Assembly (NCBI GenBank): GCA_020630335.1
Contig: JAHDBN010000010.1
Span: forward strand, 1 to 64,000
DNA length: 64,000 nt
Reading direction: 5' to 3'
Source of the DNA: Bacteriovoracaceae bacterium
GTDB taxonomy: Bacteria > Bdellovibrionota > Bacteriovoracia > Bacteriovoracales > Bacteriovoracaceae
In this document: in pieces, positions 38,358 to 59,962 of the stretch
Layout of the letters: the number at the start of each line of letters is the position of its first letter
Position numbering within the stretch: position 1 is the first letter of the stretch
Position numbers and translations under genes: made by a program
Notes under the pieces: generated by a model
Told to the model about the DNA's origin: nothing
The model's database searches: none
The model's input: the letters and a program-made list of their open reading frames with translations, nothing else

Positions 38358-38483
38358 TTACTTACTTAACACTCTTCCTGTCGGCCCTTTAGGTGTAGTA
38401 TCTCCATTTCCTTTTTCTCCAGTATCACCCGTTGTCGAAAATGCTAATCCTGAGATAATTAAGAGCAAAAATAAATATTTCAT
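38358..38483 (-). CDS. 41-residue exported peptide coupled to a TIGR02147 regulator
   Basis: A short gene. Its ATG overlaps the TGA of the upstream TIGR02147 regulator (ATGA), and AAGGA lies ten bases before the start. Residues 1-16 (MKYLFLLLIISGLAFS) form a clear signal peptide. The predicted mature 25 residues are Gly/Thr/Lys-rich and hydrophilic, with TGDTGEKGNGDTT and KGPTGR. The overlap, ribosome site and signal peptide argue for a real gene. A processed secreted peptide sensed by the regulator is an attractive guess; a structural or toxin-like role is equally open. Confidence 0.65.
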   Translation of the reverse strand: MKYLFLLLIISGLAFSTTGDTGEKGNGDTTPKGPTGRVLSK

Positions 38484-39262
38484 TGTTTATTCCTTCGATT
38501 TAAATCAGTTAATGGAAATAACTGTATTGAAGTTTGGTAGACTTCTGTTTTGTTTCCTACTTTAGAAAAAGCGGAGATTTTCTTCCTAAATTCTCTAATG
38601 AGTTCTTTCAACTCAGGTAGTCTATCTGGATCTATCGCAAATGAGCAAGAAGAAAAGTCTCTTTGATCTAAGTCGAATTCTCGGATTTTTTCTTTTGCGA
38701 TATCAAGGCCTTCAAGATGTGAGACCATTAAGGCAGCGCTCTCTATACCATCAGATGTTTTAACGTCATTATGGGTTTGGATATATTTCCCATCTTCATC
38801 TTTAGAAATTAATTCAACCTTTAATAAATTCTCAATAACTTCTTGAGCTCGTGTTAAGTCTATATTTAAAGAATAGCTTACTGTTTCAGCACTGAATTCT
38901 TTCAAATCATCTAAGCTGAATAATTCTAGAGCAGCATAGTATTCCCATTCTGCAATAATTTCATAATATGATTCATCTAATTCAAATCTAGGATCCAAAA
39001 TTTCTGATCCAAGTAAGTTTAAGTCTTTTTTGAAAAAACTTTCAAGAAACAAACTCTTCTCTAGTGGTGTTAAGTCAATCTTGTTGGCAACTTCCTTCAC
39101 ACTTCTTAAAGGAAGTTTTCTTTTTCCTCTGATAATTTGGCTAAGACTCGCACTATCAAGATCTAAATCTCTTGCAAAAGCTCTTAAGGAATACTTTGGA
39201 TTACTGCTCTTTCTTGCTTCTAAAACGTCATTTAATTTTTGAACATAGTATAAATCGCTCAT
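38480..39262 (-). CDS. TIGR02147/DUF4423-family regulator
   Basis: 260 residues. Residues about 22-62 form a Xre-like helix-turn-helix (YSLRAFARDLDLDSASLSQI, then RGKRKLPL). The C-terminal half matches the TIGR02147/DUF4423 region: LDESYYEIIAEWEYYAALEL, LLKVELISKDEDGKY and a terminal FPLTDL after a conserved SSCSFAID stretch. It is homologous to the protein at 58584-59345. The family is thought to be DNA-binding; targets are unknown. A TATAAT only 9 nt before the ATG, and no Shine-Dalgarno, suggest a leaderless mRNA. Its stop overlaps the start of an exported peptide gene. Confidence 0.85.
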   Translation of the reverse strand: MSDLYYVQKLNDVLEARKSSNPKYSLRAFARDLDLDSASLSQIIRGKRKLPLRSVKEVANKIDLTPLEKSLFLESFFKKDLNLLGSEILDPRFELDESYYEIIAEWEYYAALELFSLDDLKEFSAETVSYSLNIDLTRAQEVIENLLKVELISKDEDGKYIQTHNDVKTSDGIESAALMVSHLEGLDIAKEKIREFDLDQRDFSSCSFAIDPDRLPELKELIREFRKKISAFSKVGNKTEVYQTSIQLFPLTDLNRRNKQ

Positions 39263-49561: not shown

Positions 49562-52174
49562 CTACCTCACATCACTTTGAATTATCAATCGATTAGGATG
49601 CGTCGCTAAAAATGGATTCACCCCATAAATCCTGAAAGGTTTTTGCGCTTTCTGTACCCTCCAAACTTCACCTGCTTCTTCTGGGTCAACGAAAATTTTA
49701 TGATAGCTATCTTTTTGAGATACATCTGAATTCTCTTGTAAATCCAAAACTACCTGCCCAGAAGGATTCAAAATCTTCCCCCGTCCACTACCTGAATAAA
49801 AAGTGAACTCTGAAACTCCTGCTGGAACATAAAAATATCGATAAGCCCCATGATCACCAAAAGCATCAAGTGAGAGTTTCACATCTTCTTTTTCAAGTTT
49901 GATAACTAAATCTTCTGAAACCTCTGAGACATTTAGATCATTTTTAAATTCGAGCACTCCCCCCCCAAGTGAAAAAACGTCAATAAGATATAACCCTTCC
50001 TCGGAAATACTCTCATCAAATTCATAAAACAATCCATCTTTCTTTAAATCTCTATAGTCAGCAATGAGCTCTTTCCTATCATTTAGCTTACTAATAGAAA
50101 TTCGAGGAGAAAATCCTAATTCTCTATAATGCTTGATATACCCAAAAAGATACTTAAACTGCAATTCTTGACCTTTTTTCAGATAGATCAAATAAGACTT
50201 ATCGCCTTGAAAGTAATGACCTCTATTAAATAGATCATAATAATTTCCTTTAAAACTAGCAGTACTTAGCTCATCTAGATAAACAACTGGCGAGGATAAG
50301 TTTAAGTGATCTGGTAAAATTAAATCATCTTCTGCTCCTAAAAAACCTAATATCTCTTCTTGAGTATATGGCTCACTACTCTTCCAAGGATTCAAGGACT
50401 CCCTGACATTTCTGGTAGCTCCATCTGGTATTTTGACCAATCCATCATTGGCATCTAAGAGAACATAAGCCGCATGGCTATGATTAAGATGTAGTTTTCT
50501 AAACCTATAGGTGAACATAATATATTTCTTAAACTTCTCTTGCCTAGTGTCTAGATTTAAATCTTTTTGATACTCATAAAGAAGCCTTAAGCTCTGTGTG
50601 TATATAACTAAGTGCTCAATTCTTTTTCTTGATTGCTCTGAGAGCTCATGAGTCAAAGCAGCCCTTAGCACTGAAAATTGTTTTCTTACTTTCTCCAAAC
50701 TAAACTTTAGGGGATGCTTATGATCAAGATATAAGAAAAACTCTCTCATCTCTTCTTTTGCATCCTCAAACATTTGTTCTAAAAACTCTTCGTAGTATTT
50801 GTCTTTATTTTTTATCTCTTTAATATCCCAAAGCGATCGTTTAATCATAAAATAATTAAAGGCATAAGGTGTGTAATTATCTGCTCCTTCTGATTTGTAG
50901 TACTTCCCATTATTATCATGAACAAACTTTATAGTCTTAAGCATAGTATCTAGATCAGCAATTCTTGAGCGCTCATCAACTCCTTTGTACCATTGATAGA
51001 CTGCAGAGTATTCATACATTCCCAGTTCTTTTACTTTTTCAGACCAAAGCTTGTAAGCTTCTTCAAATTTCATATCTTTTGCACGAATAAATCCATTTGC
51101 AAGATAAGTGATAACATTCTCTTCAGCTTTTAAAGCTGGTGGATGAGAATGCTGGTTATAAGCATAAAATCCAACAAACTTTTTTCTTCCATTAAAATCT
51201 ATCGATGATATTTTCCTGGCAAGAGTATTTGCAATATGGACAACATGATCAGATGCATATTCTCCAATATCCAAGCAAGGAATAGAATTACAAATCCCTC
51301 CATTACCATCATCTGGTTCCACTGAAAATGCCTCGTCATTAGGATTTTTTTCTAGCCAATCAAGTGCAAACTCCTCAAAGATTTCATGGACTCTCGCCTC
51401 AGATGGATTTAGATTTCCTCCGACTTGGTATTCATTATTCACTTCAACAAAGTATGAAGGATTTTCTTCTAACTCTTCAGCATATTCTTGTTTTATTTTC
51501 CACTGAAAGTGTCTTAAAGCAAGATAGTTTTCTGTAAACTGATTTACTTCTTTATATTTTCCCAGTGAACTCTCTAGTTCTGGCCATGTTGAATATCCCT
51601 CAAAAGAAGTTCTTCCTAAAAAGCTAGGAGAGAAGCTTTCTTTATAACTAACCCACAAAGAATCACTAGAAGGTATATATTCCCAATAATCAGCAGGTGA
51701 ATATAATCGATACCCTAGATCAAATAAAATCTTATAAACTGCTCTTTTTACTCCTTTTTTATGATGAGACAATACTAAAAGTTGCTTCTTGGCTGTATTG
51801 CTCTCTAAAATAAATGCTTCTCTGTCTTTAAAGTTTTTATGTTCTACTAATGAGGTTGTAAGTTCAAAATGCTTATTAGGGTTAATATAGCCTAAATAAA
51901 TACCCGGATCGTCAGCACTTTTGGTAAAGTCTCTTTGTTCTATCTTAAAATGAACTTGGGTGATTTCAGATAATATCTCTTGTAATTGTTGAGCACTATC
52001 CAAGAAGTCATCTTTTGAGTTCTTACTTATATAAATATTGGGATGATTAACAAGATTAATTCTTTTCTTAAAAACTCTTCTTTCCCCCAAATTATAAAAG
52101 TTTTCAAATGAAGCATTATTGCCACAAGAAATAAGTAAGAAAACAAGAATACTCTTTATTAGTAATTTATTCAT
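49562..52174 (-). CDS. DUF4838 lipoprotein, glycoside-hydrolase-like
   Basis: 870 residues. Lipobox Cys17 (LLISC). The N-terminal third has the GH-accessory-like segment GYRLYSPADYWEYIP, found before DUF4838 and alpha-glucuronidase-like domains. The DUF4838 core follows: ENPSYFVEVNNEYQVGGNLN, then SVEPDDGNGGIC and a helical region with FVGFYAYNQHSHPP. The C-terminal 250 residues are beta-rich, possibly carbohydrate-binding. DUF4838 proteins occur in polysaccharide-degradation clusters, so action on a surface glycan is plausible. No companion sugar genes adjoin it. Confidence 0.8.
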   Translation of the reverse strand: MNKLLIKSILVFLLISCGNNASFENFYNLGERRVFKKRINLVNHPNIYISKNSKDDFLDSAQQLQEILSEITQVHFKIEQRDFTKSADDPGIYLGYINPNKHFELTTSLVEHKNFKDREAFILESNTAKKQLLVLSHHKKGVKRAVYKILFDLGYRLYSPADYWEYIPSSDSLWVSYKESFSPSFLGRTSFEGYSTWPELESSLGKYKEVNQFTENYLALRHFQWKIKQEYAEELEENPSYFVEVNNEYQVGGNLNPSEARVHEIFEEFALDWLEKNPNDEAFSVEPDDGNGGICNSIPCLDIGEYASDHVVHIANTLARKISSIDFNGRKKFVGFYAYNQHSHPPALKAEENVITYLANGFIRAKDMKFEEAYKLWSEKVKELGMYEYSAVYQWYKGVDERSRIADLDTMLKTIKFVHDNNGKYYKSEGADNYTPYAFNYFMIKRSLWDIKEIKNKDKYYEEFLEQMFEDAKEEMREFFLYLDHKHPLKFSLEKVRKQFSVLRAALTHELSEQSRKRIEHLVIYTQSLRLLYEYQKDLNLDTRQEKFKKYIMFTYRFRKLHLNHSHAAYVLLDANDGLVKIPDGATRNVRESLNPWKSSEPYTQEEILGFLGAEDDLILPDHLNLSSPVVYLDELSTASFKGNYYDLFNRGHYFQGDKSYLIYLKKGQELQFKYLFGYIKHYRELGFSPRISISKLNDRKELIADYRDLKKDGLFYEFDESISEEGLYLIDVFSLGGGVLEFKNDLNVSEVSEDLVIKLEKEDVKLSLDAFGDHGAYRYFYVPAGVSEFTFYSGSGRGKILNPSGQVVLDLQENSDVSQKDSYHKIFVDPEEAGEVWRVQKAQKPFRIYGVNPFLATHPNRLIIQSDVR

Positions 52175-52309: not shown

Positions 52310-55300
52310 CTATCTATTAGCATTCCATAACGCACAATCAGGAAATCCTGTTGGACACCTAAGAGCTGGTAACCTTCCTGGGAGTGCTTCCCAGACTGTA
52401 GTAAAGTCCCATGTAGTATATACAGGATGAGTACTTAAATAGAAATTTGAAAGCGTCGCCTCTGGTGCTGCAAATTCTGGTGTTGTTGTAGGATGAGATC
52501 CATCACATGGTGATCCGACACAAGTTGCTCCAGAATAATAATATGAATCAGTAAGAGTTCCTGATGGGTCCATTGAATGAGTCCCCATAAAATAATCCGA
52601 AGTCACACAATCGACATCACCAACAGAAAAGACATTATCAAAATTATAAGTTTGCAGAGGCTGAACATTTGCAACAAACCCACCACATCGATTACCAGTA
52701 ACAGCTTTAAGATTAGAAATAGTATAAGAATTAGAAATACTATATGTCTGAGTAGTTGTTCCAGTCCCTGCAATAAAGCCTGCACTATGAGTTTCTACGC
52801 CAGTAAGAGTACCCACTCTATTTACATTTGTAACCAAAGAATAACTATCTGTTATTATATTATTACCTCCATTTTCAGTCATGCCTGCAAATCCTCCAAT
52901 TTTCCCTGCTCCTTCAACTAAAGAACCTGCTGAGAAGCTTTCTCGAATTTCAAAAGAATTCCCTCCAAACCTTGCAACAAAACCACCGGCATTTCCATTA
53001 GGATTTCTGACTGAACCTAATGCAAAATTTTTCTCAAATATAATATGATTTGGAGCTGAGTTAGCTGATCTAATTGATCCAACAAATCCTCCTGATCCAA
53101 CTGCACTCCTATTTGCATTACTAAGAACATCACCTGTTACATAGTTGTTCTTGATTAATGTAGGAAATGTCTGAGTTGATGCTATTGCCATTGCTCCCAT
53201 GAAACCTCCAGCTCCTCCATTCCCTGTCCCTGTACTATTTGATTCGACATTACCTGTTGCAAAACAGTTCTCTATAGTTATGCCTCTGTAAGCTCCTCCT
53301 ATAAAACCACCTGCGCTTGCAGCAGAAGCTTCTGTATAAACATCACCTGTTGCGTGAGTATTTTTTATATACGCATTCGCATTAGTCAAATTAATTGAAC
53401 CAATTGCTCCTCCAACGTTTCCAGCCTTCCCATCTACATCTGCATGAGTTTCAGAACTTTCTATCTGAACACCTTTAATCATGTATCCTACTAATCCCCC
53501 AATCATTCCACTCGCTATATCTGCAGTTGGCAAACTTAGTGCATCTACTTTAGAAGAAGATAGAACTTTAACTCCAATTAATTTTGCATTATCTTCCATA
53601 TAACCTGCTGCACCACCACATCTAGTTTTTAAGCAGGTCACAGTTCCTAAAACTTCTGAATTCGAAATAGATGAATTATCACTCATCTTTCCAGCCAAGC
53701 CACCTGTCTGAGTACCATGACCTACAGTGTTTCCACTTGATTTAACGAATTCAAGAAATGAGTTATCAAGTAAAGCACCCACAAAACCACCACAGCTACC
53801 GAAACAATTAACATCACCCTGAGACTCCGTATCACCTAAGCTACTCCCAGATGCCTTAGAGCTATCATTCATTATACCTACTGCCCCACCTATAGTTGAT
53901 GAACTATTAGTAAACCCATCAACATCAATATCAAAAACCAGATCAATTAATTCAGATGTATTATCCATAGCCCCAATTAGGCCACCACACTCAGAAGAAC
54001 CGCAAACAACTGGAGTAGTAATTGTTAAACTGATTGCTCCAGCACTAGCTGCTTGTATTTTTGCAGAATTTTTCATGTATCCAACAAGCCCACCTGTCTT
54101 CTTAGCTGTATTACTAACTGTACCTGTATAAACTATATTATCGAGAACCACAGAATTCGCCATAATTCCAAAAGCTCCACCACATTGATCATGTGTACAA
54201 GTCACTGTAAGTGCTGTTCCGTTAACTTGATCTAGTGTGGCGTCATCAAAGTTTCCAATAATACCACCAGTATTTAACCCACCAGAGACAACACCTGAAT
54301 TGCTTATTTCTATGCTCTGAAGATCTGCTCCTCCTGTTGCTTTGCTCGCTAACACTCCACAATCAGCTGCCCCACAGGTTACTGCATAATTATCAATCGT
54401 AAGATCATAAACCTTACCACCAGCGATTTCAGTAAACACACCTGTATCATCAGCTCCGTTATAAATCTTTTTATTGTTTCCGTTGAAGTCCCCTGTGAAT
54501 GAACCAATACCAGTGTCATTTCCGATTGAGCTCATATCAATGTCATTACAAAGAATATAAAACTTATCCATTGGTCCATTCTGAGCTAGATCTTCAAGTT
54601 GAGTTTCGTTATAAATCTCCCAAGCAGTTGCCGTTGCTAGACCGTCACCAAAATCATCATACTTAGTCGCACTCGGCCCTGTCGCATCTACACATTGCTT
54701 CGCTTCTCCTGAAACTTTTGCTGTATCATTTGTTACTCCATCAGAACAAGTTGCCGTATAAGCAAGATCCCAAACCCCAAGAGCCGTCGGTGTAATCACT
54801 ACGTTTGGTAGAGTCCCCGTAAATGTACAGTTAGTACATGCTCCAGCTGTATAAGTTATAGGAGCGCAAGATGAATCTGTATCATTAGTTGAAACGTCTA
54901 TACTTGAAAGTGCAACACCTGGCGCACTATCCGTTTGAGGATCGTCTACTGCATCTATACTTGCAGCTGTTCCAAAAACTTTTGCATTATCTGTAGTCGA
55001 ACCATCAGAACAAGTTGCTGTATAAGCAAGATCCCAAGCTCCTGCAGCTGCAGGTGTAATAACCACGCTTGGCAATGAACCTGTAAATGTACAGTTTGTA
55101 CAAGTTCCTGTTGTATATGTAATGGGAGCACACGCATTTGATGTATCATTACTTGATACATCAATGCTTGCTAATGCCACACCTGCTTCACTAACGCTTA
55201 CCTCATCATCCACAGCATTAATTTCAACAGCACTTACTGCATTACCAAAAAGTTTACCACTATCGGCAGTTGATCCATTCGCACAAGTTGCAGTGTAAGG

Positions 55301-58219
55301 CACTTCCCATGCCCCTGGATTAGTTGGAGTAACTATAACACTTGGTAAAGTTCCACTCACAGTCGCATTAACGAGAGTTCCCAAAGTATAAGTGATAGGA
55401 GTACAACTTGAACTCGTTACCAAAAGACTTAAATCTTCTGCTCCAAGTGCTATACCTTCTGTCGATGGATCAATCTCTTTATCAGGAGAATCTACTTCCG
55501 CTGCTGTTCCAGTAACATCTGCCGTATCCGAAGTTGAGCCATTAGCACAAGTTGCAGTATAGGTTAGCTTCCAAGCTCCAGCAGCTGTAGGAATAATATT
55601 ATAACTTGGACCAGTTCCTGAAAAAGTACAATTCAGCACACAGTTTGCACTGTAAGTAATTGGTGCACAGTTTGAACTCGAATCGGCCGTTCCAGTTGAA
55701 CCTGCTGCAGTATCTACATTTACTATTGAGGTCACTGCCGGCTCACTTACAGTAACAGGGTTATCATTAGCTGTTATATCCGCTGCCGTTCCTAAAACTT
55801 TCGCATTGCTTGTTGTTGTTCCATCTGAACAAGTTGCTGCATAAGCAAGGTTCCAAGTTCCTGCAGCTGTTGGAGTAATATCTACACTAGGCAGAGAACC
55901 TGTAAAAGTACAATTAGTACAAGCTCCTGCAGTATAAGTAATAGGTGTACAATTTGTATTACCATCATTTAAAGATACATTTACGGTAGGAACAACAACC
56001 CCTGCTTCACTAGCACTCACTGGATCATCTGTAGCTGTAATTGCTGGAATAGCAAGTGCTGTTCCTATTACACTTGCAGTGTCTGAAGTCGATCCGTCAG
56101 AACAAGTTGCTTTATAAGTAAAACTCCAAGCTCCTGCTGCTGTTGGAGTAATATCATAATTAGGTGCACTTGGATTAGCTACTGCTGTACAGTTCGTACA
56201 TGCCACTTGAGAATATACAATTGGTGCACAAAAAGAATCCGTATCGTTTCCTGATACATCTATTGCATTTACTGATCCTGCTTGTGAACTTGCTACACTA
56301 TCATCCATAGCATCTATCTCTACTGGTAAAACATTTTCACTATCCGTTGCAAGTTGCCCACTTGGGTCTACTAAATCAGCTGAGCATGTCCAAGGACCTG
56401 AGCCTGCAAAAGTTACTGAAGGTACTGTAAAGCTTCCTCCACTACAAGTTACTGGTGCACTAGGTCCAGCTCCGCAATCAACTGTAATGCTAGATCCCTC
56501 TGGAGAGCACGCTCCACTTGTAGGGTGATTACCCGCTGCTGATACTGCTGGTATATCTAAATCAACACTAGGATTATTCATCCCTGTAATGTCACTATCT
56601 GTATCTACTAATCCACTTGGTGCTACTAAGGTAGCTGTACAAGTTGCTGGCACTGAAGAAATCACTGTGCTAGCTCCACTATAAACTCCACCACTACAAG
56701 TTACTGCTGCACTTGGACCTGCTCCACAATCAAGTGTCACACTTGATCCATCCGGAGAACACGTTCCGCTTAAAAAATGAGTCCCTGGAGTTGTAATTGT
56801 ACTTATATCATCAATTGTTACCTCTGGGTTTCCATCAACAGGTGCTGCTGTTGATTCTGTATCCGAGTCACTTAAACCAGTTGCTGAATCAGTTACTACT
56901 GAAACACAACTAGCTGGAAGAGATGCTATGTTTACACTTGCAAGACTAAAAGATCCACCAGAACACGTCCCACTCACTGGGCCTGATCCACAATCAACAC
57001 TTACAGCCGCTCCATCTGGTGAACAAGACCCGCTCATTGAATGAGACCCTGGAGTCGTTATTGAGATTATTGGATCTAAATTTATCTCTGGAAGAGGAAT
57101 TAAATCCGTTGAATCAGTTGCTTGATTTGAATCTTGATCTATTAAATTTGCCGAGCACGTTGCAGGCAATGTTGATACATTTACTGAAACTACTGAATAA
57201 CTTCCTCCGCTACAAATCACAGGCGCACTTACCCCTGAACCGCAATCAACCGTTACACTTGATCCATCTGGTGAACATGACCCAGTCATAGGATAACTAC
57301 CTGGAATGTAAACTTCAGGATCATCGATACTAACCTCTGGAAGAGAGATAGCAGTAATATCGCTATCTGAATCAGTTTGTCCGTTAGGAGCAACTAAGCT
57401 TGCTGTACAAGTTGCTGGTATAGAAGAAATTGTTGTATTCGCTCCGCTATAAACTCCGCCACTACAAGTAACTGGAGCACTAGCTCCTGCTCCACAATCA
57501 ACAGTAATACTTGATCCATCTGGGGAACAACTTCCACTCATTGGATAAGTTCCAGGAGCAGTAATTGAACTTATATCATTTAAAGTCACCACTGGATTTA
57601 CTCCTGATGGAGTTGACTCTGTATCTGTATCACTTAAACCAGTTGATGAATCAGTAATTATCGAATGACAACTAGCGGGCAAACTAGGCACTCCAACTAC
57701 AGGTATATTGAATATTCCTGAACTACAAGCAACTGGAGATGTAGGACCTGACCCACAATCAACACTCACCAATGCTCCATCTGGTGCACATGAACCTACC
57801 ATTGGATGATTACCGGTAGTTGAAATTGAATCAACCGGATCTAGATCAACAAAAGGAGTAACTAAAGGGTTCGAGCTTTCTGTATCTCCGGCAACCGGAG
57901 TCCCTCCAGAGCTTAGAGTTGTCACACAAACAGCTGGGCAAAGAGTTGGGAAAGGAACGTTAGGCACCATGAAGGATCCAGAATTACAAGTTGTACTTAC
58001 CGGACCAGCTCCACAATCAACTTCAATGTCTGCTCCACCTGTACATGTTCCTGATAAGTTATGAGTAACACCTGAACCACAATTTAAACTTGAAATAGAG
58101 TCAAGATTTACATTGGGTGCTACTGACGAAGAGGAATCAAACAAATAAGCATTGTCATTATCCGCACAAGAGACAAAAAATAAAACTACTAATAAAACTA
58201 CTGATTTAAAAAACTGCAT
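52310..58219 (-). CDS. Giant repeat lipoprotein with GLUG-type C-terminal repeats
   Basis: 1969 residues. Lipobox Cys18 (FFVSC). Residues about 30-640 carry seven or eight repeats with SGSCSPDGSSVTVDCGAGPS and an alternating SLPATC. About 640-1180 hold six repeats of about 90 residues (CAPITY...CTNCTFTGSLP...ITPTAAGAW.LAYTATCSDGST.D.AKV.GTA). From about 1200 a different region starts (AWEIYNETQLEDLAQNG), followed by some twenty 20-25-residue GLUG-type repeats (TGGLVGYM, GGFVGAL, GGAIGSI), which usually fold as a beta-helix. It shares both N-terminal repeat types and the start leader with the partial lipoprotein at 1-4063. An adhesin-like function is inferred. Confidence 0.9.
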   Translation of the reverse strand: MQFFKSVVLLVVLFFVSCADNDNAYLFDSSSSVAPNVNLDSISSLNCGSGVTHNLSGTCTGGADIEVDCGAGPVSTTCNSGSFMVPNVPFPTLCPAVCVTTLSSGGTPVAGDTESSNPLVTPFVDLDPVDSISTTGNHPMVGSCAPDGALVSVDCGSGPTSPVACSSGIFNIPVVGVPSLPASCHSIITDSSTGLSDTDTESTPSGVNPVVTLNDISSITAPGTYPMSGSCSPDGSSITVDCGAGASAPVTCSGGVYSGANTTISSIPATCTASLVAPNGQTDSDSDITAISLPEVSIDDPEVYIPGSYPMTGSCSPDGSSVTVDCGSGVSAPVICSGGSYSVVSVNVSTLPATCSANLIDQDSNQATDSTDLIPLPEINLDPIISITTPGSHSMSGSCSPDGAAVSVDCGSGPVSGTCSGGSFSLASVNIASLPASCVSVVTDSATGLSDSDTESTAAPVDGNPEVTIDDISTITTPGTHFLSGTCSPDGSSVTLDCGAGPSAAVTCSGGVYSGASTVISSVPATCTATLVAPSGLVDTDSDITGMNNPSVDLDIPAVSAAGNHPTSGACSPEGSSITVDCGAGPSAPVTCSGGSFTVPSVTFAGSGPWTCSADLVDPSGQLATDSENVLPVEIDAMDDSVASSQAGSVNAIDVSGNDTDSFCAPIVYSQVACTNCTAVANPSAPNYDITPTAAGAWSFTYKATCSDGSTSDTASVIGTALAIPAITATDDPVSASEAGVVVPTVNVSLNDGNTNCTPITYTAGACTNCTFTGSLPSVDITPTAAGTWNLAYAATCSDGTTTSNAKVLGTAADITANDNPVTVSEPAVTSIVNVDTAAGSTGTADSSSNCAPITYSANCVLNCTFSGTGPSYNIIPTAAGAWKLTYTATCANGSTSDTADVTGTAAEVDSPDKEIDPSTEGIALGAEDLSLLVTSSSCTPITYTLGTLVNATVSGTLPSVIVTPTNPGAWEVPYTATCANGSTADSGKLFGNAVSAVEINAVDDEVSVSEAGVALASIDVSSNDTSNACAPITYTTGTCTNCTFTGSLPSVVITPAAAGAWDLAYTATCSDGSTTDNAKVFGTAASIDAVDDPQTDSAPGVALSSIDVSTNDTDSSCAPITYTAGACTNCTFTGTLPNVVITPTALGVWDLAYTATCSDGVTNDTAKVSGEAKQCVDATGPSATKYDDFGDGLATATAWEIYNETQLEDLAQNGPMDKFYILCNDIDMSSIGNDTGIGSFTGDFNGNNKKIYNGADDTGVFTEIAGGKVYDLTIDNYAVTCGAADCGVLASKATGGADLQSIEISNSGVVSGGLNTGGIIGNFDDATLDQVNGTALTVTCTHDQCGGAFGIMANSVVLDNIVYTGTVSNTAKKTGGLVGYMKNSAKIQAASAGAISLTITTPVVCGSSECGGLIGAMDNTSELIDLVFDIDVDGFTNSSSTIGGAVGIMNDSSKASGSSLGDTESQGDVNCFGSCGGFVGALLDNSFLEFVKSSGNTVGHGTQTGGLAGKMSDNSSISNSEVLGTVTCLKTRCGGAAGYMEDNAKLIGVKVLSSSKVDALSLPTADIASGMIGGLVGYMIKGVQIESSETHADVDGKAGNVGGAIGSINLTNANAYIKNTHATGDVYTEASAASAGGFIGGAYRGITIENCFATGNVESNSTGTGNGGAGGFMGAMAIASTQTFPTLIKNNYVTGDVLSNANRSAVGSGGFVGSIRSANSAPNHIIFEKNFALGSVRNPNGNAGGFVARFGGNSFEIRESFSAGSLVEGAGKIGGFAGMTENGGNNIITDSYSLVTNVNRVGTLTGVETHSAGFIAGTGTTTQTYSISNSYTISNLKAVTGNRCGGFVANVQPLQTYNFDNVFSVGDVDCVTSDYFMGTHSMDPSGTLTDSYYYSGATCVGSPCDGSHPTTTPEFAAPEATLSNFYLSTHPVYTTWDFTTVWEALPGRLPALRCPTGFPDCALWNANR

Positions 58220-58583: not shown

Positions 58584-59345
58584 ATGAGTTCTATTTTCAC
58601 CAGAATATTAAAAAGAGAGTTTGAGAAAAAAAAACAAAAAAACACTCAGTATAGCCTAAGGGCCTTTGCTAAATATTTGGAGGTTGATCACTCTTTATTA
58701 TCTAAAGTCTTGAGGTCTAAAAGAGAATTTTCAACAAAGATGATTCTTCGAATAGCTCCGAAGATTGGACTTTCTAGTGATCAAGTAAAGCTAATTTCAA
58801 AACATCAAGGAAGCGGTAAGTTCTTGTGGGAAAAAATTGATAAAGATTTATTCAACAAGGTTGCGACATGGCTAACATTTGCAATACTAGAAACTATCAA
58901 AATACCTCATATTTCTTTTTCAGCATCTAAAATTTCAAAAGCTTTATCACTTGATATTAGTGAGATCCAACCAACTTTGGATAAGCTAGTATCTCTTGAG
59001 GTCATATCTAACAATAATGGTGTGTATAAATTTGATAATCCATCGACCAACTGGTTTGATTTTGAACACACTAGCGAAGTAAGAAAAAGGCTCCAAGAAG
59101 AATTTTTGATAAAATCAATTGAAGCTCTAAAAAGTGTTAACTTTAAAGAGCGAATTCATTCGTCACTTACCATTTCAATGAATAGAAAAGATTTACCTGC
59201 AGTAAAAGAAATTACTCAAGATTATATAAAAAAAATGAATACTTTTATCTCGACAAGCGACAAAGATAAAGAAGTCGTCTATCAACTTTGTACTTCATTT
59301 TTTCCTCTTTCTCAAATTGATTTCCAAGGAAAGGAGTACTTGTGA
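58584..59345 (+). CDS. TIGR02147/DUF4423-family regulator, second copy
   Basis: 253 residues from the ATG at 58584, which restores the usual family N-terminus (MSSIFTRILKREFEKK). Xre-like HTH: YSLRAFAKYLEVDHSLLSKV, then LRSKREF. The C-terminal region has LDKLVSLEVISNNNGVYKF and SSLTISMNRKDLPAVKEI, ending in FFPLSQI, as in the copy at 38480-39262. It is transcribed away from the giant lipoprotein gene at 52310 and could control it. Its TGA overlaps the GTG start of an exported-protein gene (GTGA). Confidence 0.85.
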   Translation: MSSIFTRILKREFEKKKQKNTQYSLRAFAKYLEVDHSLLSKVLRSKREFSTKMILRIAPKIGLSSDQVKLISKHQGSGKFLWEKIDKDLFNKVATWLTFAILETIKIPHISFSASKISKALSLDISEIQPTLDKLVSLEVISNNNGVYKFDNPSTNWFDFEHTSEVRKRLQEEFLIKSIEALKSVNFKERIHSSLTISMNRKDLPAVKEITQDYIKKMNTFISTSDKDKEVVYQLCTSFFPLSQIDFQGKEYL

Positions 59346-59962
59346 GAAAAATATTATTTTTTTTAACCATTGTTTTAAGTCATAATTCCATTGCTACTAA
59401 TGGACATGGAGGAAATGGAGGAGGCGTTCATTATTGCCCTAAGAAATCTATTGAATTTTATGATTTATATGAAGCAAGAGAGATTTATCGTTTTAAACAA
59501 AGTAAACTGACGGAATCTTTAAAAGAAGAAGATGTTCAGAACCTCGATTCACTTATTAGGCAATACCTTGAGAAAGTTTTTTTAGTTGATCCTCTATTAG
59601 AAAAAGAGATTTATAAAATAGTCAAAACGATAGATACTAAATTTGTTTTTATTCACCAGAAAAATTTAACTCGCTTACACGACAGCAACATTCCTTTTAC
59701 TGATATAAATTGCCAATATAGACAACTTGCAAATTGGCATAATTTAAGTGATTCCATCTTTATAGATATCACTTTATTTAATGAGTTAAGAAACTCTCCC
59801 CAAAATAGAGCGAACCTTGCTGCTTTTTATGTTCATGAAGCTTTATATAAGCTATATCGAGTCAGAAATCCTAATTTCAAGAACTCAGATGTTGTCAGGA
59901 AATTTGTGGCTGAAATCTTCTCAGACACACCTTTGACAATGCATCCACTATTTAAGCCTTAA
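59342..59962 (+). CDS. Exported protein coupled to a TIGR02147 regulator
   Basis: 206 residues, GTG start overlapping the regulator stop by 4 bp and preceded by AAAGGAG. After a signal peptide (RKILFFLTIVLSHNSIA) the mature protein opens with GHGGNGGGVHYCPKKSIEFYDLYEAREI, a Gly-rich start typical of a group of uncharacterised exported bdellovibrio proteins. Two cysteines could pair. Near the C-terminus FYVHEALYKLYRV has an isolated HE that does not make a clear zincin. Function unknown. Confidence 0.75.
   Translation: MRKILFFLTIVLSHNSIATNGHGGNGGGVHYCPKKSIEFYDLYEAREIYRFKQSKLTESLKEEDVQNLDSLIRQYLEKVFLVDPLLEKEIYKIVKTIDTKFVFIHQKNLTRLHDSNIPFTDINCQYRQLANWHNLSDSIFIDITLFNELRNSPQNRANLAAFYVHEALYKLYRVRNPNFKNSDVVRKFVAEIFSDTPLTMHPLFKP

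Follow-up and report, generated by a model that had tools for sequence, protein, structure and literature searches.

In the Bdellovibrionota examined here, regulators of the DUF4423/TIGR02147 family are coupled to a gene for an exported protein, and most of these exported partners share a short glycine-rich tag that covaries with the regulator. Our main reading is that the regulator controls its own operon by recognising the tag on the exported protein with which it is co-translated, a hypothesis to which, in the absence of binding data, we assign a probability of roughly 0.45. The family descriptions of DUF4423 (PF14394) and TIGR02147 mention no function, exported partner, tag or operator, and in the literature searched, whose coverage was partial, we found the association of regulator and exported partner undescribed, no paper on TIGR02147 and none joining Bdellovibrio and RNPP. 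The only paper found for DUF4423 merely lists one such protein, Bd3700, with those elevated during intraprey growth (PMC12546842).

The window, that is, the whole stretch of 64,000 nucleotides that was analysed, contains two such modules. Regulator 2 (253 aa; 58584..59345, plus strand) overlaps by 4 nt (GTGA) the gene of partner 2 (206 aa; 59342..59962, plus strand, with a GTG start at 59342), an exported protein with a signal peptide, the tag GGNGGG and a zincin-like HE motif (HEALY, residue 165). The glycine tag region of partner 2, H-G-G-N-G-G-G-V, is read from the sequence at 59405..59428 (plus strand), GNGG being encoded at 59411-59421. Regulator 1 (260 aa; 38480..39262, minus strand), a member of a clade of 22 regulators, overlaps by 4 nt (ATGA) the gene of partner 1 (38358..38483, minus strand), an exported product of 41 aa consisting of a signal peptide and the tag GEKGNGD. 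Both regulators score above the curated cut-offs of TIGR02147 (71.8 bits for regulator 2 and 124 bits for regulator 1, cut-off 50) and of DUF4423 (99.7 and 131.8 bits, cut-off 30), so that membership in these families is met. The original prediction, made from the letters only, that two TIGR02147 genes each overlap an exported open reading frame by 4 nt and that the products have 41 and 206 residues, was confirmed in both respects, export resting on a heuristic signal-peptide call.

The predicted model of regulator 2 (pLDDT 87; all our structural models are single chains only) consists of an XRE-type HTH, a winged helix and a C-terminal part with a few helices, and its winged-helix part resembles ArsR/MarR regulators with Z about 10 over 58-93 residues. 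Pfam recognised only the HTH and DUF4423, and neither the Pfam search nor the predicted model revealed a TPR array. Two other identities were rejected: HigA antitoxin, which reached 20 bits against a cut-off of 47.7 through the HTH part alone and whose neighbour here is an exported protein and not a HigB toxin, and AimR, whose match to the window regulators was confined to the HTH.

The genome to which the window belongs (G000) is a 2.36-Mb draft with six DUF4423 genes above the cut-off, five of which are followed by an exported partner, while none follows the weakest (C17). Homologs of partner 2 lie immediately behind DUF4423 genes in the same genome (C12) and in G003, which belongs to the same genus, G006, G015 and G016. 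As regards the surroundings of regulator 2, a giant surface lipoprotein gene had been predicted to diverge from it, and a gene of this kind is indeed present 365 nt away (52310-58219, minus strand), encoding a lipoprotein-like repeat protein of 1969 aa with a lipobox-like N-terminus and GLUG-like repeats near the C-terminus; no evidence was found that it is a member of the module. An 870-aa lipoprotein-like exported protein without a Pfam match at E 0.1 is encoded at 49562-52174 (minus strand).

The same prediction held that a cytoplasmic regulator joined to a secreted partner is a general design, and this was supported in the relatives examined. DUF4423 genes were gathered from 20 relatives and 80 named contigs, almost entirely inside Bdellovibrionota; the scan that collected the regulators used a narrower alignment, and the broad regulator alignment was too diverse. 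As a control, 211 gene ends were drawn from the window together with nine further stretches of 20 kb, and in both sets the next open reading frame was chosen by one simple rule and signal peptides were called by one heuristic of our own. An exported partner was found behind 131 of 150 high-scoring regulators and behind 35 of the 211 gene ends. Once the window's own pairs had been removed from both sets, along with the loci fetched solely through a partner or tag pattern, a reading frame with a signal peptide followed 123 of 142 high-scoring DUF4423 genes (87%) and only 33 of the 209 gene ends left in the control (16%; Fisher p = 3e-42). The lack of enrichment that would have refuted the prediction did not occur, and the computation supports the module and its coupling. 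Chance overlap is ruled out by the difference between 87% and 16%, and fetch bias by the unchanged result after those loci had been dropped. The exact 4-nt overlap recurs at 63 of the further high-scoring DUF4423 loci. Among weak DUF4423 matches only 2/14 have a signal-peptide reading frame downstream, so the rule holds for the main DUF4423 subfamily. The weak subfamily without an exported partner (L111, which is G000:C17, L098, L105, L106, L107 and L109) has C-termini of the ..IDFF.. style.

Most partners have in common a glycine tag, typically GNGG, located directly at the mature N-terminus or close to it, which a position weight matrix found in 121 of 156 exported partners versus 3 of 156 after shuffling. 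Synonymous variation in the GNGG codons is about as frequent as elsewhere in the genes concerned. This rules out the tag as a DNA or RNA element and means that selection on it acts at the protein level, a conservation that the computation supports. The link with the regulator is clearest in the clade of regulator 1, where 20 of the 22 regulators have a partner with a scored tag: a K or R directly precedes GNGG in 19 of these 20, against 2 of 101 in the other clades (p = 6e-19). The tag of this clade, G[DE]KGNGG, spans five body clusters, and pairwise identity among its partners is 0.8-1.0 at K-G-N-G-G and near 0.1 both in the signal peptide and past the tag. Three partners of this clade retain GDKGNGG even though it is found only 48-66 residues into the protein, and the 41-aa partner 1 of the window retains GEKGNG, which argues against its being a mere remnant. 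Over 107 non-redundant regulator-partner pairs, regulators that are farther apart tend to have more dissimilar tags (r = 0.15, p = 0.007; p = 0.0055 once body similarity is taken into account), and their distance shows no relation to that between the bodies (r = 0.01). The overall correlation is thus weak, and the strong case is that of one clade.

The tag is also nearly exclusive to these modules. DNA coding for G[DE]KGNGG gave 19 hits in 129 genomes of the family and none in the reversed control; 17 of them lie immediately behind such regulators, one belongs to an exported paralog 11 kb away and one is spurious. VGNGGD gave 8 hits in 16 genomes, and all six in exported proteins are linked to DUF4423. 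A general sorting signal was therefore rejected, since in the genomes scanned exported proteins with the tag are almost absent away from DUF4423 genes. Covariation and near-exclusivity are themselves results of the computation; that the tag acts as a specificity determinant linked to the regulator is likely, as far as it can be inferred from sequence alone and without binding data. One arrangement may be recorded here separately: at L170 (G015:C9, 1016-7410) four exported genes in tandem lie behind a single DUF4423 gene; their products share almost the same signal peptide and tag (MRNLFYIGLLMAGLISPTFAGDKVGNGG) and differ in body.

In a set of 144 partners, a signal peptide is present in 130, the glycine motif in 109 and a hydrophobic-HE motif in 92, the last being found in 23 of 111 background reading frames and in about 25 of 144 partners after shuffling. 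The idea that the partner bodies are wholly unrelated was dropped, because most have the hydrophobic-HE motif about 133 residues past the tag (the median spacing in this set). In the commonest body type, with the consensus AG-xx-V-GNGGD-xxx-C ... C-xxx-Q ... AaL-x-lHE-x-IY ... S ... R, the tag stands at a fixed spot ahead of the conserved Cys and the HE helix; no Pfam model matches the N-terminal domain of this body, and additional domains vary. The HE motif accompanies 96 of the 121 tagged partners, the other 25 including products of 40-90 aa. Most partners are 130-700 aa long, and the smallest products have 40-41 aa.

Partners resemble zincins and other HExxH folds in the hydrophobic-HE motif that most of them carry and in a weak fold likeness of the 206-aa model (pLDDT 85, pTM 0.83, single chain), for which the best of eight weak rows, several of them HExxH-type folds, was selecase with Z 3.4, alongside YbeY (2.7), the DPC-repair protease 6mdw (2.6) and the HExxH domain of ChlB (2.0). 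They differ in that partner 2 has no match in Pfam or in a sequence search of the PDB, Foldseek gave nothing below E 0.001, and the motif is HExxY instead of HExxH, so that the HExxH criterion is not met. A complete HExxH is present in only 21 of the 92 HE motifs, and it is therefore possible, by inference, that many partners are not active enzymes. The tag is missing from some partners, among them 13 lipoproteins of one family (L049, L203, L217, L218, L224, L225, L227, L228, L246, L250, L253, L256 and L257), which are putatively YcfL-like. The regulators paired with the tagless lipoprotein form one nearly monophyletic group, and their promoters have mostly TGTTTCA/TGAAACA sites.

In relatives, the computation also supports an operator with a recognition-helix code. 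Palindromes were found upstream of 72 of 175 DUF4423 regulators versus 7 after shuffling, commonly in the form TGTnnCA-N4..8-TGn'n'ACA-CTT-TGTnnCA about 59 bases before the start. An operator score of at least 6 was reached by 35 of 175 DUF4423 promoters, by none of 150 other genes and by about 0.4 in Markov shuffles. The half-site follows the recognition helix: with E at position 19 after YSLRAFA, TGGAACA-type sites are present at 15 of 18 loci, and with Q at the same position TGAAACA-type sites are present at 15 of 23, this column having the strongest half-site association in the alignment (z = 8.4). The promoter of the C3 regulator of G000 has TGGAACACTTTGTTCCA; at the two window promoters no recognisable operator was found, and nothing beyond chance. 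The perfect sites inspected, from 129 genomes, stand mostly before DUF4423 operons, in some of which another exported gene comes first. A few stand before other exported genes, and in some of these cases the genome concerned contains the half-site again at another place. For the relatives with an operator it is very likely, judging from sequence alone, that the regulator is an autoregulator.

Two arrangements around these operators deserve a separate record. At the loci L357, L358, L362 and L365 of relatives a palindromic operator is followed by a three-gene operon made up of an exported gene, the DUF4423 gene and another exported gene, in this order. At L363 (1750-2606) and L364 (2805-3539), in G086 and G087, stand-alone exported genes (..LGxPxYGGxGCP..) follow a TGGAACACTTTGTTCCA operator that recurs unchanged before a DUF4423 operon at another place in that genome, and these exported genes could conceivably be targets in trans.

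According to the main reading, each module would be a self-regulating operon composed of a cytoplasmic HTH regulator and a co-translated exported protein, the latter carrying a short tag recognised by its regulator and, in most cases, a zincin-like HE domain that is often degenerate. The regulator would occupy an operator in the promoter of its own operon and, in certain genomes, also the promoters of other exported genes. The unexported precursor would bind the C-terminal part of the regulator through the tag and so set DNA binding, and expression would follow the amount of tagged product waiting in the cytoplasm, i.e. the efficiency of export. The gene overlap would put the synthesis of regulator and partner in one place, and a 41-residue product made of signal peptide and tag would suffice for such a readout of the precursor. 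Binding of the tag to the regulator (its DUF4423 part), binding before export, the sign of the regulation (repression or activation) and the autoregulation of the two window genes are all inferred. Against this reading stand one exported tagged protein located away from its regulator, the absence of a recognisable operator at the two window promoters, the existence of tagless partners and the weakness of the correlation between tag and regulator outside the one strong clade.

The alternative that survives best, and that remains possible, is that the tag serves the structure or the sorting of the exported protein and that the regulator answers another ligand without ever touching the tag, covariation arising because regulator and leader are inherited together. 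It is favoured by the fixed position of the tag before the conserved Cys and HE helix in the commonest body, by the share of tagged partners having HE (96/121) and by the modest global correlation between tag and regulator. However, the tag is found in 25 partners without HE, including the 40-90 aa products, it tracks the regulator clade across body types, its flanks, signal peptide included, are unconserved, and few exported proteins bear the tag where no DUF4423 gene is near.

A second alternative comes from the RRNPP systems (PlcR-PapR, Rap-Phr, Rgg-SHP, AimR-AimP), whose criteria are an HTH receptor of 250-500 aa with TPR and an adjacent Sec-exported propeptide of 10-100 aa (PMC10075063). 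The DUF4423 modules share with them an HTH receptor beside the gene of a Sec-exported product and a specificity between product and receptor, which for the DUF4423 modules is inferred from covariation alone. Receptor length is met by the window regulators, adjacency by the overlaps of 4 nt seen in the window and again in many relatives, and Sec export by the heuristic signal peptide of 130/144 partners; the 41-aa product has the size of a propeptide, unlike the 206-aa one and most products of the relatives. The DUF4423 regulators lack TPR repeats, their products are mostly full proteins, and they occur in Bdellovibrionota whereas RRNPP systems occur in Firmicutes. Since TPR is unmet and a small propeptide mostly unmet, we do not file the modules as RRNPP, although by analogy they could possibly work in a similar manner. 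The specific proposal that the tag is set free as an extracellular peptide, re-imported and bound by the regulator, as a cell-to-cell or self signal, is in our opinion unlikely. It is supported by the layout, with the tag near the mature N-terminus, by the minimal products of 40-41 aa and the receptor-specific tag, and by regulator boxes before other exported genes; PlcR boxes too are found at other exported genes. It is opposed by the absence of a TPR domain from the Pfam results and the predicted model, by the 130-700 aa of most partners and by the tags placed 48-66 residues inside some of them.

In ImmR-ImmA an HTH regulator gene is followed by a zincin-like gene, and cytoplasmic ImmA cuts the repressor. 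That the HE protein is likewise a protease acting on the regulator, as the overlapping zincin-like gene and the complete HExxH of some partners might suggest, is very improbable, since unlike ImmA the partner is exported (signal peptide in 130/144), its HE site is often degenerate (HExxH in only 21/92) and tagged partners without HE exist.

Returning to the reading of the tag by the regulator, a bolder version, on which we would not bet, is that the modules represent an unrecognised signalling class of Bdellovibrionota, with many parallel DUF4423 channels per genome, each with a private partner tag, through which the cell, or its neighbours, would read the export or release of envelope proteins by a tag-and-operator code. 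The proposed mechanism offers a testable role for a large uncharacterised regulator family, which reaches as many as 17 matches in a single searched genome, and does so in bacteria for which most exported proteins have not been studied. If it is true, each genome would hold several mutually orthogonal sensor pairs whose tags, and in part whose operators, are predicted, and the sensing by a cell of its own exported proteins would be open to peptide-binding and reporter tests. Well over a hundred unstudied modules in Bdellovibrionota may thus be, with odds that we consider nearly balanced and without binding data, instances of a cell reading its own exported product.
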